Below, in pieces: positions 47,138 to 63,859 of a DNA stretch of 64,000 bases. The DNA lies in the NCBI RefSeq assembly GCF_016862115.1, contig NZ_BOMI01000098.1:1-64000 (forward strand), read 5' to 3'. Source of the DNA: Paractinoplanes deccanensis (GTDB lineage: Bacteria; Actinomycetota; Actinomycetes; Mycobacteriales; Micromonosporaceae). The position numbers and the translations under genes were made by a program. Within the stretch, counting starts at the first letter, position 1; every line of letters begins with the position of its first letter. A model generated the notes under the pieces. It was given only the letters and a program-made list of their open reading frames with translations, was not told the origin of the DNA and ran no database searches.

Positions 47138-47563
47138 ATGCGGCCGGAACAGCAGGTTAAGTCGTCTAAGTCACGCAGAGTCATCGTGGCGGCGGTGATC
47201 ATCAGCGATGGCCGTGTTCTCGCCTGCGAGCGGTCGGCTCCGCCCGAGGTGGCGGGCCGCTGGGAGTTCCCCGGGGGCAAGGTCGAGCCGGGTGAGACCG
47301 AGGAGCAGGCGCTCGCCCGCGAGTGTGTCGAGGAGCTGGGCGTACGGGTCGAGGTCGGCGCCCGCGTCGGGCCGGACGTCTCGCTCGCGCACGGCCGGGC
47401 CGTCCTGCGGGTCTTCAACGCGCGGCTGCTCGACGGCGACATGCCGCGGGCGCTGGAGCACACGTCCATGCGCTGGCTCGGTGTTGACGAGCTGGACAGC
47501 GTGCACTGGCTGCCCGCGGACAAGCCGATCGTCGCGGAGCTACCCGCCTTACTGACTGTCTGA
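47138..47563 (+). CDS. NUDIX hydrolase (MutT-like)
   Basis: The 141-residue protein has a full NUDIX box, GGKVEPGETEEQALARECVE followed by ELGV, preceded by AGRWEFPGGK as in MutT proteins that destroy 8-oxo-dGTP. Start: ATG 47138 with GGGAAG upstream; GTG 47120 is in frame but sits at the -10 box. The end overlaps the convergent acyl-CoA ligase gene by 15 bp. Confidence 0.92.
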   Translation: MRPEQQVKSSKSRRVIVAAVIISDGRVLACERSAPPEVAGRWEFPGGKVEPGETEEQALARECVEELGVRVEVGARVGPDVSLAHGRAVLRVFNARLLDGDMPRALEHTSMRWLGVDELDSVHWLPADKPIVAELPALLTV

Positions 47564-49081
47564 CGCGTACGTCTTGCGCAGCTCCCGCTTGAGCACCTTG
47601 AAGCTCGGGCCGAGCGGGAGCGACTCCGCAAAGCGGATCTTGCGGGGGTACTTGTGCTTGCCGAGCTTCTCGCGGGACCACTCGATCAGCTCGTCGGCCG
47701 AGACACTGCCGGGCTCGGCAACCACCACGGCGCAGATCTCCTCGCCGTGCACCTGGTCGGGCACGCCGATCACGGCCACCTGTTGCACGGCCGGGTGCCG
47801 GGCCAGCGCCTCCTCCACCTCGCGCGGATAGACGTTGAAGCCGCCCCGGATCACCAGGTCCTTCTTGCGGTCGACGATCGCGATGAAGCCGTTCTCGTCC
47901 TTGGTGCCGAGATCGCCGGTGCGGAACCAGCCGTCGACCACGGCCTCCTTCGTGGCCTCCGGGTTGTTGAGGTATCCGGCGAAGACGTTGTGCCCGCGGA
48001 TCACGATCTCGCCGAGCTCGCCGTCGGGCAGCAGCTCGATCCGCTCGTCGATCTCCGGCCGCGCGATCTCGACCTCCACGCCCCAGATCGGGTGGCCGAC
48101 CGAGCCCGCCTTGACGCCGAACGCGGGCTGGTTGGTGGTGGCGGTCGGCGAGGTCTCCGAAAGGCCGTACCCCTCGAAGATCTCGGCGTGGAAGGTCTCG
48201 TTGAACTTCTCCAGCACGGCGACCGGCAGGGACGCGCCGCCCGAGACGCAGAGCCGCAGCTCGGGCAGCTTCTCGGCCTTGGCGGCGGCCTCCAGCAGGC
48301 CGATGTACATCGTCGGCACGCCGTGGAAGATGGTCACGTTCTCCTTGACCATCAGCTGGATGGCGGCCTCGCCGCTGAAGCGGGCGAGCAGCACGAGGGT
48401 CCCGCCGAGGCGGAACGTGCCGTTCATGCCGACCGTCTGGCCGAAGGTGTGGAACAGCGGCAGGCAGCCCATCGTCACGTCGTCGGGGTGCAGGTCGTGG
48501 ATGTCGAAGACGTTCACGATCGTGTTCATGACGAGGTTGAGGTGGGTCAGCAGGGCGCCCTTGGGCTTCCCGGTGGTGCCGCTCGTGTAGAAGATGACAG
48601 CGACGTCCTCGGCCTCGCGGCTGACATACGTGCGCATCCTCTCGCCGCCGGCCTCCTCCAGCCTGGGCAGACCGGGCACGGCGGGACCCACCGAGACGAT
48701 CGGGACGTCGGCGATCTTGGCGGCGGCCACCGCGTTCTCGAGCTGCGACGAGTGGGCGACGAGCAGCTTCGCGCCGCTGTCCTCGAGGACGTACGCGTTC
48801 TCCTCGGGGGTGAGGAGCAGGTGCATCGGTACGAGCGTCGCGCCGACCGCCAGCGTGGCGTAGTAGACGCGCGGGAAGTCGGCCAGGTTGGGGATCTGGA
48901 TCGCGACCACGTCGCCGGGGCCGATGCCCAGCTCGCGCAGCGCGGAGGCGTACGACAGGGTCTGCTGCCAGAGATCGCGGTAGGTGATCCGCTCGGTGGT
49001 GACGCTGTCGATCACGGCGATCTTGTCGGGAAACTTGCGAGCCGACTCGGCCAGGACGGTGGCGAGCGACAGTTGGGTCAT
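47549..49081 (-). CDS. Acyl-CoA ligase (AMP-binding, long/medium-chain type)
   Basis: The 510-residue enzyme activates a carboxylic acid with ATP and CoA. Motifs: FYTSGTTGKPKGALLTH (P-loop), FEGYGLSETSPTATTNQP, DGWFRTGDLGTKDENGFIAIVDRKKDLVI and the C-terminal catalytic Lys in PSFKVLKREL. The residue before that Lys is Phe where Gly (TGK) is usual. It lies downstream of an acyl-CoA dehydrogenase gene on the same strand and divergent from TetR-ALDH-ADH genes, so it probably activates the acid made by the aldehyde dehydrogenase. Confidence 0.93.
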   Translation of the reverse strand: MTQLSLATVLAESARKFPDKIAVIDSVTTERITYRDLWQQTLSYASALRELGIGPGDVVAIQIPNLADFPRVYYATLAVGATLVPMHLLLTPEENAYVLEDSGAKLLVAHSSQLENAVAAAKIADVPIVSVGPAVPGLPRLEEAGGERMRTYVSREAEDVAVIFYTSGTTGKPKGALLTHLNLVMNTIVNVFDIHDLHPDDVTMGCLPLFHTFGQTVGMNGTFRLGGTLVLLARFSGEAAIQLMVKENVTIFHGVPTMYIGLLEAAAKAEKLPELRLCVSGGASLPVAVLEKFNETFHAEIFEGYGLSETSPTATTNQPAFGVKAGSVGHPIWGVEVEIARPEIDERIELLPDGELGEIVIRGHNVFAGYLNNPEATKEAVVDGWFRTGDLGTKDENGFIAIVDRKKDLVIRGGFNVYPREVEEALARHPAVQQVAVIGVPDQVHGEEICAVVVAEPGSVSADELIEWSREKLGKHKYPRKIRFAESLPLGPSFKVLKRELRKTYASDSQ

Positions 49082-49166
49082 ACTGAGCTCACCTCCGGCA
49101 TGCCCTCCTGGCCCTCGCCCGCGAGGCCGTTACGAGGTGCGGCTGGGTGCCGCTCGGTGCAGTCGC

Positions 49167-62416: not shown

Positions 62417-62417
62417 G

Positions 62418-63122
62418 TCAGAACCCCAGGTAGGCATGCCGGAGATCGGCGTCGTCGGCGAGCGCCGCGGCGTCGTCGCGGGCGGCTATGCGGCCCAGCG
62501 ACAGCACGATGCCCTGGTCGGCGATGGAGAGCGCGCTGCGCACGTTCTGCTCGACCAGCAGGACGGCGAGCCCCGTGCGGTCGCGCAGGTCGCGCAGCAG
62601 CGCCATGATCTGGGCGGTGACCCGCGGCGCCAGCCCCAGCGAGGGCTCGTCGAGCAGCAGCAGCCGGGGTTGCGCGGCGAGCGCCCGGCCGAGCGCCAGC
62701 ATCTGCCGCTCGCCGCCGGAGAGCTGATGACCGAGATGCCCGCGCCGCTCGGCGAGCCGCGGGAACAGCTCGTAGATCGGCGCAAGGGACGGCTGCGGCT
62801 TGCGCCAGAGCCCGCCGAGGCGAAGATTTTCGTCGACGGTGAGCTCGGTGACCACGCCCCGGCCCTCGGGGACGTGCGCGATGCCGTGCCGCACCATGCG
62901 CTCGACCCTGATCCCGCGAAGGTCGGCGCCGTCGAAGACCACGCGGCCGCGGGTGGGCGGCAGCAGCCCGGAGAGCGCGCGAAGCAGCGTCGTCTTGCCG
63001 GCGCCGTTCGCGCCGAGCACCGCGACGATCTGCCCCGGCTCGACGGTGAGGCTGACATCGTGCAGTACCGGCGCGGCCCCGTAGCCGACGGTGAGGCCGT
63101 CGACCTCGAGCAGCGCGCTCAT
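62418..63122 (-). CDS. livF: ABC transporter ATPase (LivF-like)
   Basis: This 234-residue ATPase has Walker A (GANGAGKTTLLRAL), the signature LSGGERQMLALGRAL, Walker B (LLLLDEPSLGL) and the LivF-type segment GIAHVPEGRGVV. Its ATG overlaps the stop of the other ATPase gene by 4 bases. It powers uptake together with LivG. Confidence 0.96.
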   Translation of the reverse strand: MSALLEVDGLTVGYGAAPVLHDVSLTVEPGQIVAVLGANGAGKTTLLRALSGLLPPTRGRVVFDGADLRGIRVERMVRHGIAHVPEGRGVVTELTVDENLRLGGLWRKPQPSLAPIYELFPRLAERRGHLGHQLSGGERQMLALGRALAAQPRLLLLDEPSLGLAPRVTAQIMALLRDLRDRTGLAVLLVEQNVRSALSIADQGIVLSLGRIAARDDAAALADDADLRHAYLGF

Positions 63123-63859
63123 GCGGCCGCCCCCAGATAGGCCTCGGCGACCTTTGGGTCGGTGCGGATCTCGGCGGGCGGGCCGAGGGCGATCGGCTTG
63201 CCGAAGTCGAGCACGAGGATCTCGTCGCAGACCGACATGACGAGATCCATGTGGTGCTCGACCAGGAGGACCGTGCAGTCGGCCTCCTGGATCAGCGTGG
63301 CCAGCCAGCGGATCTCGTCGGCGTCGAGGCCGCCCGCCGGCTCGTCGAGCATGAGGATGCGCGGCTTGGCGGCGAGGGCGCGGGCCAGCTCGACCCGCTT
63401 GCGTTTCGCGTACGGCAACGAGGCGGGCAGCGCGGCGGCGTGCTCGGCGACGCCGCAGCGTTCGAGCGCGGCCCACGCCTCCTCCTCGGCCTTGCGCGAC
63501 CGGGCGCCGACCAGCACGTTCTCGAGGACGGTCATGCCGTTGAACTGGCCGACGCCCTGAAGCGTGCGCGCGATGCCCCGCCCCGTGAGCTGGTGGGGCC
63601 GTGGCCGGAACGGCCGCCCGTCGAGCGCGATGGTCCCCGACTGCGGCACCACGAAACCGCAGATGACGTTGAAGAGCGTGGTCTTGCCGGCGCCGTTGGG
63701 CCCGATGATGCCGACGGTCCGCCCGGGAGGCACCCGAAGAGACACGTCGTCGAGGGCGAGCAGGCCGCCGAAGCGGACAGTTATGTGATGGAGCGTGAGC
63801 CCCCGATCCGCGGCAGATAAGGAATCCGCGGTCGAAGGCGCTGACGAATCCGTTGCCAT
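63119..63859 (-). CDS. livG: ABC transporter ATPase (LivG-like)
   Basis: The 246-residue ATPase has Walker A (GPNGAGKTTLFNVI), LPYAKRKRVELARALA as its divergent signature region, Walker B (ILMLDEPAGGL) and the LivG-type TGRGIARTLQGVGQF. The ATG at 63859 has GAGG upstream and begins a short disordered arm; a TTG at 63946 would place the start beside the operator and is less likely. It is the first gene of the five-gene transporter operon. Confidence 0.93.
   Translation of the reverse strand: MATDSSAPSTADSLSAADRGLTLHHITVRFGGLLALDDVSLRVPPGRTVGIIGPNGAGKTTLFNVICGFVVPQSGTIALDGRPFRPRPHQLTGRGIARTLQGVGQFNGMTVLENVLVGARSRKAEEEAWAALERCGVAEHAAALPASLPYAKRKRVELARALAAKPRILMLDEPAGGLDADEIRWLATLIQEADCTVLLVEHHMDLVMSVCDEILVLDFGKPIALGPPAEIRTDPKVAEAYLGAAA

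Follow-up and report, generated by a model that had tools for sequence, protein, structure and literature searches.

A putative operon joining a Liv-type importer to an ACAD10/11-type kinase and acyl-CoA dehydrogenase in Paractinoplanes deccanensis

Known kinase/dehydrogenase systems and the P. deccanensis operon

The mammalian proteins ACAD10 and ACAD11 pair a kinase with an acyl-CoA dehydrogenase (ACAD), and it was not until 2024-2025 that a chemistry was assigned to them in mammals, according to the available parts of the two reports (PMC11342911, PMC12440821). A Burkholderia kinase and ACAD are described, in the available part of PMC11342911, as able to substitute for the matching ACAD10 domains in enzyme reactions: the chemistry has therefore been shown in bacteria, though not for the subclade considered here. 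In the lva operon of Pseudomonas putida a kinase, an ACAD, a short-chain dehydrogenase/reductase (SDR) and a transporter are found together, along with the ligase LvaE, LvaB, the sigma-54-type regulator LvaR and the ActP-type transport genes LvaF/LvaG (PMC9399607 and PMC6692424, as far as their accessible text goes). A related pair is present in the window analysed here, the 64,000 nucleotides at positions 1 to 64,000 of contig NZ_BOMI01000098.1 of Paractinoplanes deccanensis (host genome of 10.6 Mb in 260 contigs), where it belongs to a ten-gene minus-strand operon that also encodes a Liv-type ATP-binding cassette (ABC) importer, two SDRs and a TetR-type regulator, TetR2. The kinase/ACAD pair is known; its joining to a Liv ABC importer and to one TetR-type site, in a core operon with a variable cassette, was not found described in a literature search that included few subscription papers.

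The operon extends from 63859 down to 54728, in the order LivG-LivF-LivH-LivM-binding protein-SDR1-SDR2-kinase-ACAD-TetR2. Gene identities were obtained from Pfam and NCBIfam scans, in which all the genes named in the original prediction, made from the sequence alone, were recovered. The importer set, of the Liv/HAAT kind, is complete: two ATPases, LivG (63119..63859; ABC_tran and BCA_ABC_TP_C) and LivF (62418..63122; ABC_tran, found on a longer open reading frame), both delimited at a start codon; two BPD_transp_2 permeases, LivH (61538..62437) and LivM (60463..61494); and a Peripla_BP_6 substrate-binding lipoprotein (59155..60426), whose LAAAGC sequence near the N-terminus we take to be a lipobox. 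They are followed by SDR1 (58341..59084; adh_short_C2, with motifs YGVTK and TGASRGIG), SDR2 (57568..58344; adh_short, with motif YAVTK), the APH-fold kinase (56576..57571; Pfam APH), the ACAD (55377..56576) and, as final gene, TetR2 (54728..55324; TetR_N), the proposed regulator. The spacings at the nine junctions, from LivG to TetR2, are -4, -20, 43, 36, 70, -4, -4, -1 and 52 bp: five are overlaps and the widest gap is 70 bp, so that the ten genes look like one transcription unit, with no room for a further gene.

With the mammalian proteins, as described in the accessible portions of PMC12440821 and PMC11342911, the operon shares the pairing of kinase and ACAD, the catalytic Asp residues, the Arg/His/Arg cluster and the HCMR motif; unlike them, the pair consists of two separate bacterial genes, has no HAD domain and stands in one operon with an importer, two SDRs and a TetR. 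With the lva operon it shares the presence of a kinase, an ACAD, an SDR and a transporter in one operon, but LvaB, LvaE, LvaR and LvaF/LvaG are missing, a Liv ABC importer, a TetR and two SDRs being found instead. Judged by its gene content, it is not an lva operon. A published link between a Liv importer and an ACAD10/11-type kinase was not found, in a literature search that included few subscription papers.

A cluster on the Tsukamurella tyrosinosolvens plasmid NZ_LR134470 includes relatives of SDR1 (67% identity), SDR2 (51%), the kinase (47%) and the ACAD (70%). It also carries a thiolase (72%), a MaoC protein (63%) and an ACAD pair (68% and 47%), whose relatives stand near the operon in other Micromonosporaceae, together with a ligase that shares 46% identity with its counterpart. 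The Liv importer, in contrast, is missing from this cluster, which features in addition a phosphotriesterase-family protein, a HAD phosphatase, a quinone oxidoreductase, the ligase and a hydrolase. The contiguity of these enzymes on the plasmid suggests that they form one pathway. In the host genome, a thiolase match at 74% is located on another contig (two stops are counted in the match, yet the listing of open reading frames gives a 414-residue frame), while for the partner ACAD (ACDb) of the pair no close match is present, the best one being at 35%.

Kinase and dehydrogenase of the ACAD10/11 type

The original prediction had placed the kinase and the ACAD with the Lva and ACAD10/11 proteins. 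That they are genuine relatives of this kind is supported by sequence similarity, catalytic residues and trees. In the PDB, the ACAD scores best against 4hr3 and three sequences of ACAD11 (E 7e-130 to 6e-132), with the fifth match only at E 9e-44; against the ACAD11 chain 8v3u the value is 8.5e-131. The kinase matches 9o56, ACAD11 and 3dxp (E 4e-48 to 7e-68), with 3.6e-56 against the ACAD11 chain 8v3v and 5e-55 or better for all ACAD11 structures. Such values, together with a gene order conserved both in the genus and in other genera, indicate that the resemblance is not due to chance.

Residues were compared to chains 8v3u and 8v3v, taken as the mouse ACAD11 protein of PMC12440821: their numbering is one lower than that of the report, and they carry its Asp-to-Ala and Asp-to-Asn changes. 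In the available part of the report, D220, N225 and R176 of the kinase, and R626, R631, H634, R637 and D753 of the ACAD, are named as catalytic or substrate-binding. The kinase under study is identical to ACAD11 at the equivalents of the first three (alignment to 8v3v): its residues 195-202, HGDFRLDN, and 154-159, RQVSRW, align with ACAD11, and a DWE motif is also present; R86 of the report could not be placed in the kinase alignment and was left unused. The ACAD is identical at the equivalents of the other five (alignment to 8v3u), its residues 250-261 being RLGPGRIHHCMR and 376-383 ADGPDEVH. The catalytic Asp is therefore kept in both enzymes, and the Arg/His/Arg phosphate cluster in the ACAD, which is predicted to act as a phospho-eliminase of the LvaC and ACAD10/11 type.

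The ACAD tree, built by FastTree, contains 38 rows, 29 of the ACAD10/11 type and nine other ACADs, with a long-branch warning among the latter. All 29 rows, including the ACAD11 domain 2wbi, form one clade with local support 100; the nine other ACADs, one of which is encoded close to the operon (49167-50339), fall outside. The motif R.GPGR.HH.MR is present in all 29 (as HHAMR in three of them) and in none of the other nine; the pattern A.GPDEVH is found in 25 of the 29 and, again, in none of the nine.

The kinase tree (IQ-TREE, 39 rows, with a bootstrap that did not settle) has as its only outgroup two other APH proteins of the host genome, the two of nine candidate stretches with an acceptable open reading frame. 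The window kinase belongs to a group of 14 rows from Micromonosporaceae (81/61), mostly from operons of this type, which joins next with the kinases of Tsukamurella, R. opacus and Streptomyces (84/90). The kinases of ACAD11, 3dxp and B. multivorans cluster with other proteobacterial kinases (100/100), while the two outgroup proteins sit on very long branches, apart from the ACAD11/B. multivorans type. Both window proteins are thus in the same clade as an ACAD11 domain of known structure, 2wbi for the ACAD and 8v3v for the kinase. A phylogeny had been proposed as a way to challenge the assignment: in these trees, which do not include LvaA and LvaC, the kinase groups with those of ACAD11 and B. 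multivorans, and not with unrelated APH proteins.

Promoter, candidate operator and conservation

The boundary at 63859, where the original prediction ended, is the start codon of LivG. Beyond it a sigma-70-like promoter is found on the minus strand (63961..63988), with a -35 box TTGACG at 63988-63983, a 16-bp spacer and a -10 box TACACT at 63966-63961. The -10 box is overlapped by a putative operator, TTACACTCCTAGTGTAA (63951..63967, minus strand), an inverted repeat with perfect 7-bp arms separated by 3 bp. In an alignment of the window with 19 loci of the genus, TTGAC and TACACT are conserved upstream of LivG, and the repeat TTACACT-N3-AGTGTAA covers the -10 box. Promoter and operator (63951-63988) are also part of the operon unit.

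The repeat was searched for with up to two mismatches, using the reversed pattern as a control. Within the host genome, the LivG site is the sole exact match, and the only other site is located at 50345, in the promoter between the genes for the second ACAD and another TetR protein, TetR1. The search was extended to a set of named loci, the best 80 of 99 relatives of the binding protein, obtained by an alignment-based scan of named genomes: all 80 are from Micromonosporaceae, the closest being from Paractinoplanes and Actinoplanes. They contain 81 sites, whereas the reversed pattern gives none; LivG accounts for 76 of the sites (five of these falling within the aligned LivG match) and the ACAD/TetR1 promoter for five. 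Of the 76 named loci in which 5 kb or more of upstream sequence is available, 68 have the LivG site with no more than one mismatch, and in 29 it is exact. In the genus sample, composed of 67 genomes of Actinoplanes sensu lato, at least 63 feature the site among the matches listed; two-mismatch hits of the control are about equally frequent, and therefore only LivG sites with 0-1 mismatch are counted. On these scans the repeat, a new element from this analysis, is conserved across the family and hardly occurs outside the LivG promoter. It is probably the operator of TetR2, the natural candidate, as it is encoded by the final gene of the operon and is found in all of the 69 usable named loci (those of the 80 whose sequence extends 6.5 kb or more downstream of the gene for the binding protein).

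The association of the kinase with the ACAD is general in the genus sample: the ACAD is found in all 67 genomes (best match at 82-100% identity), with the kinase adjacent in every case. In 64 of them the binding protein is encoded no more than 5 kb away from the ACAD; in G018 it is on another contig, and in G011 and G050 no match was found. Of the 67 genomes, 20 were picked for reading of their gene regions: TetR2-ACAD-kinase-SDR2-SDR1 are present in all 20, and the Liv genes in 19. Outside the genus, but within Micromonosporaceae, 20 regions were chosen from the listed kinase matches: importer, SDR or SDRs, kinase, ACAD and TetR2 occur together in nine, one lacks the importer but retains the cassette and TetR2, and one is cut by the contig end. 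Across the family, 263 of 300 genomes contain a match to the kinase at E 1e-60 or better. Gene-order conservation in related actinomycetes, which the original prediction had asked for, is thus observed both for the kinase-ACAD pair and for the operon linkage, and the Liv importer does belong with the pair, as a conserved member of the same operon.

The usable named loci reveal how variable the operon is. In contrast with TetR2, the kinase is present in 37 of the 69, the ACAD in 40, SDR1 in 49, SDR2 in 42 and the alcohol dehydrogenase (ADH) of the neighbouring unit in 33. When all the named loci are grouped by name, every one of the 32 Actinoplanes-type loci has the kinase, as do three of the 40 Micromonospora-type and three of the eight other loci; eight of the 40 and two of the eight are truncated by a contig end on the kinase's side. 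L155, counted as kinase-bearing, contains only two kinase fragments next to a full ACAD. The cassette of kinase, ACAD and SDRs is retained in Actinoplanes and mostly missing from Micromonospora, and the comparison of loci thus separates a stable core (importer, operator and TetR2) from this cassette. In a binding-protein tree of 82 sequences with a midpoint root, from which 10 of 91 loci were left out as cut, the kinase label requires at least five changes, well-supported branches making three of them unavoidable, and it is found to either side of the root: this fits, without proving it, an early presence of the kinase with repeated loss. Various relatives, among them Micromonospora and Catellatospora, have a thiolase, a MaoC protein, an ACAD pair or a large LuxR regulator close to the importer. 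A match to the large LuxR-type regulator is present in 38 of the 40 Micromonospora-type loci, and adjoins TetR2 where the arrangement was read (e.g. L164:12095-14887, downstream).

A kinase-ACAD pair is also present on a plasmid of Streptomyces sp. NBC_00388 (L080), near an AfsA-related hotdog gene, a ketosynthase and SDR genes. This setting resembles clusters for butyrolactone signals; the pair could there remove the 4-hydroxyl of butyrolactone-type signals.

Proposed function and alternative readings

The locus is probably, though by no means certainly, a TetR-controlled operon for the import and degradation of a carboxylic acid with a hydroxyl (or oxo) group. This reading draws on features legible in the sequence itself: the genes present and their arrangement as an operon, the catalytic residues, the linkage kept among relatives and the conserved repeat. 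The Liv-type importer would take up the acid, and a CoA ligase encoded outside the operon would activate it. By analogy with ACAD10/11 and with the tested Burkholderia orthologue, a phosphate would then be placed on the 4-hydroxyl of the acyl-CoA by the kinase and eliminated by the ACAD, yielding a 2-enoyl-CoA for beta-oxidation. One SDR would probably reduce a 4-oxo group, or interconvert hydroxyl and keto forms, the other one serving beta-oxidation; SDR1 has three PDB matches at E 1e-40 or better, all of them DHRS4, and DHRS4 proteins reduce carbonyls. TetR2 is proposed to repress the whole operon, its own gene included, from the repeat at the LivG -10 box, and to be released by the substrate or by its CoA ester. 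Levulinate may be one substrate among several, together with 4-hydroxy acids, gamma-lactones and mid-chain hydroxy fatty acids; the last reach a 4-hydroxyacyl-CoA stage in the course of beta-oxidation. If so, soil actinomycetes would have ACAD10/11 chemistry coupled to an ABC importer, with one clear candidate for the operator, and the binding protein and the effector of TetR would offer two direct handles on the natural substrate.

Several observations weigh against this proposal. The operon is devoid of a CoA ligase gene, and LvaA and LvaC of P. putida are absent from the kinase and ACAD trees. The ligand of the binding protein is not readable from its sequence, the PDB relatives being only distant; the best one, 4n03 (E 4.7e-21), was reportedly deposited as a fatty-acid-binding protein. 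In 32 of the 69 usable named loci importer and TetR2 occur without the kinase, so that the importer substrate need not be a 4-hydroxy acid. Conversely, in 9 of the 20 other-genera regions kinase and ACAD are found without this importer operon, and three Micromonospora loci (L135, L139, L146) have an ACAD with intact motifs and no kinase. Since loci with the importer or the ACAD may be without the kinase, the substrates of importer and kinase may differ. Part of the gene order seen in the genus could, moreover, be due to slow rearrangement.

Importer and TetR2 might handle one compound, such as a branched or aromatic acid, while kinase, ACAD and SDRs are a passenger cassette sharing the promoter only. 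Operons of LivGFHM, binding protein and TetR2 alone do exist in Micromonospora, with the LivG site retained, and SDR1, SDR2, kinase and ACAD are gained and lost separately among the loci. Yet the cassette accompanies the importer in every Actinoplanes-type named locus, ACAD and kinase are found even in the two genus genomes where the binding protein was missed, and the changes of the kinase label on the binding-protein tree would fit early presence and later losses. This explanation is accordingly held to be unlikely, while still deserving some weight.

The original prediction had described the whole of 47549-63859 as one island with one pathway, a claim that is only partly supported. The left part is a divergent pair of transcription units: on the minus strand an AMP-binding acyl-CoA ligase (47549..49081) and the second ACAD (49167..50339), of the short-chain type and without ACAD10/11 motifs; on the plus strand TetR1 (50403..51029), an aldehyde dehydrogenase (ALDH, 51029..52438) and a Zn ADH (52435..53523). 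As one pathway, ADH and ALDH would convert an alcohol or diol into the 4-hydroxy acid, the ligase would activate it, kinase and ACAD would take off the hydroxyl, and second ACAD and SDRs would carry on with beta-oxidation. An ADH orthologue is indeed found in all 67 genus genomes, within 20 kb of the ACAD in 64 (in the remaining three, on different contigs); TetR1-ALDH-ADH, or part of it, lies beside the operon in the other-genera regions L054-L057 and L064, and the ADH is present in 10 of the 40 Micromonospora-type loci. The linkage is loose, however: no more than 30 of the 67 genomes have the ADH within 5 kb of the ACAD, and of the 20 genus regions that were read 14 have the ADH in reach and 5 the second ACAD.

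The near-match to the LivG operator in the ACAD/TetR1 promoter, TTAAACTAGCGGTGTAA (50345..50361), also seemed to join the two units. A shared operator, with one regulon for both, was dropped, because the control gives as many two-mismatch sites (three in the host genome, against two for the pattern) and because the site has a conserved core of its own. The element (50345-50382) is strongly conserved, and its core across species, AAACTAGCG...AAGTTTT, is unlike the LivG operator; it is probably the operator of TetR1. The window ligase was likewise rejected as the pathway ligase, being only the third best in the genome when compared to the ligase of the Tsukamurella cluster, with two others scoring higher. 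With its own TetR, a different promoter element and a loosely linked ADH, the unit for ligation and alcohol oxidation is better described as a neighbour, and a single pathway over the whole stretch appears improbable; the importer-enzyme operon is the part of the claim that stands.

A more specific version of the import-and-degrade reading is offered only as a speculation: the operon may be a dedicated uptake and dehydroxylation route for mid-chain hydroxy fatty acids, for instance plant cutin or suberin monomers. An even-numbered mid-chain hydroxyl, such as C10 of 10,16-dihydroxypalmitate, would give a 4-hydroxyacyl-CoA after three rounds of beta-oxidation, which would stall there; kinase and ACAD would clear the block, while the neighbouring ADH and ALDH would oxidise the terminal hydroxyl. 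A substrate of this type would explain how soil bacteria pass the 4-hydroxyacyl-CoA block. A gene of the PET-hydrolase/cutinase family (PF12740) is found on the LivG upstream side in 37 of the 40 Micromonospora-type loci (L164:3075-3962, L129:5295-6200, L116:4882-5940, L139:5039-6013 and others). Against this, none of the 32 Actinoplanes-type loci has such a gene, and most of the Micromonospora loci with it are without the kinase. Control of the gene by TetR2 was also considered and rejected: a TetR2-type site upstream of it was not found in the 80 named loci, and the neighbourhood is therefore only suggestive. A literature search on Actinoplanes, or on the use of cutin acids by bacteria, gave nothing bearing on a kinase/ACAD route.

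Finally, the kinase and ACAD might phosphorylate and eliminate in the same way but at a different position, their substrate not being a 4-hydroxyacyl-CoA. This would be compatible with the actinobacterial subclade not being among the proteins tested in the available parts of PMC12440821 and PMC11342911, but is very improbable, as all the ACAD11 residues holding the 4-phospho group are present.

Between the ADH and TetR2 genes a DUF6886 protein is encoded (53959-54498), also found in 18 of the 32 Actinoplanes-type loci. On the ligase side, the window contains genes for a nucleotidyltransferase (44687-45520), an S51 peptidase (within 44920-46245) and a NUDIX hydrolase (47120-47563), the last of which neighbours the operon in 16 of the 20 genus regions. 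Past the window, the contig (73,127 bases) carries a 2-oxoglutarate-dependent oxygenase, a major facilitator superfamily transporter, another TetR and an SdhB/SdhA-like pair.

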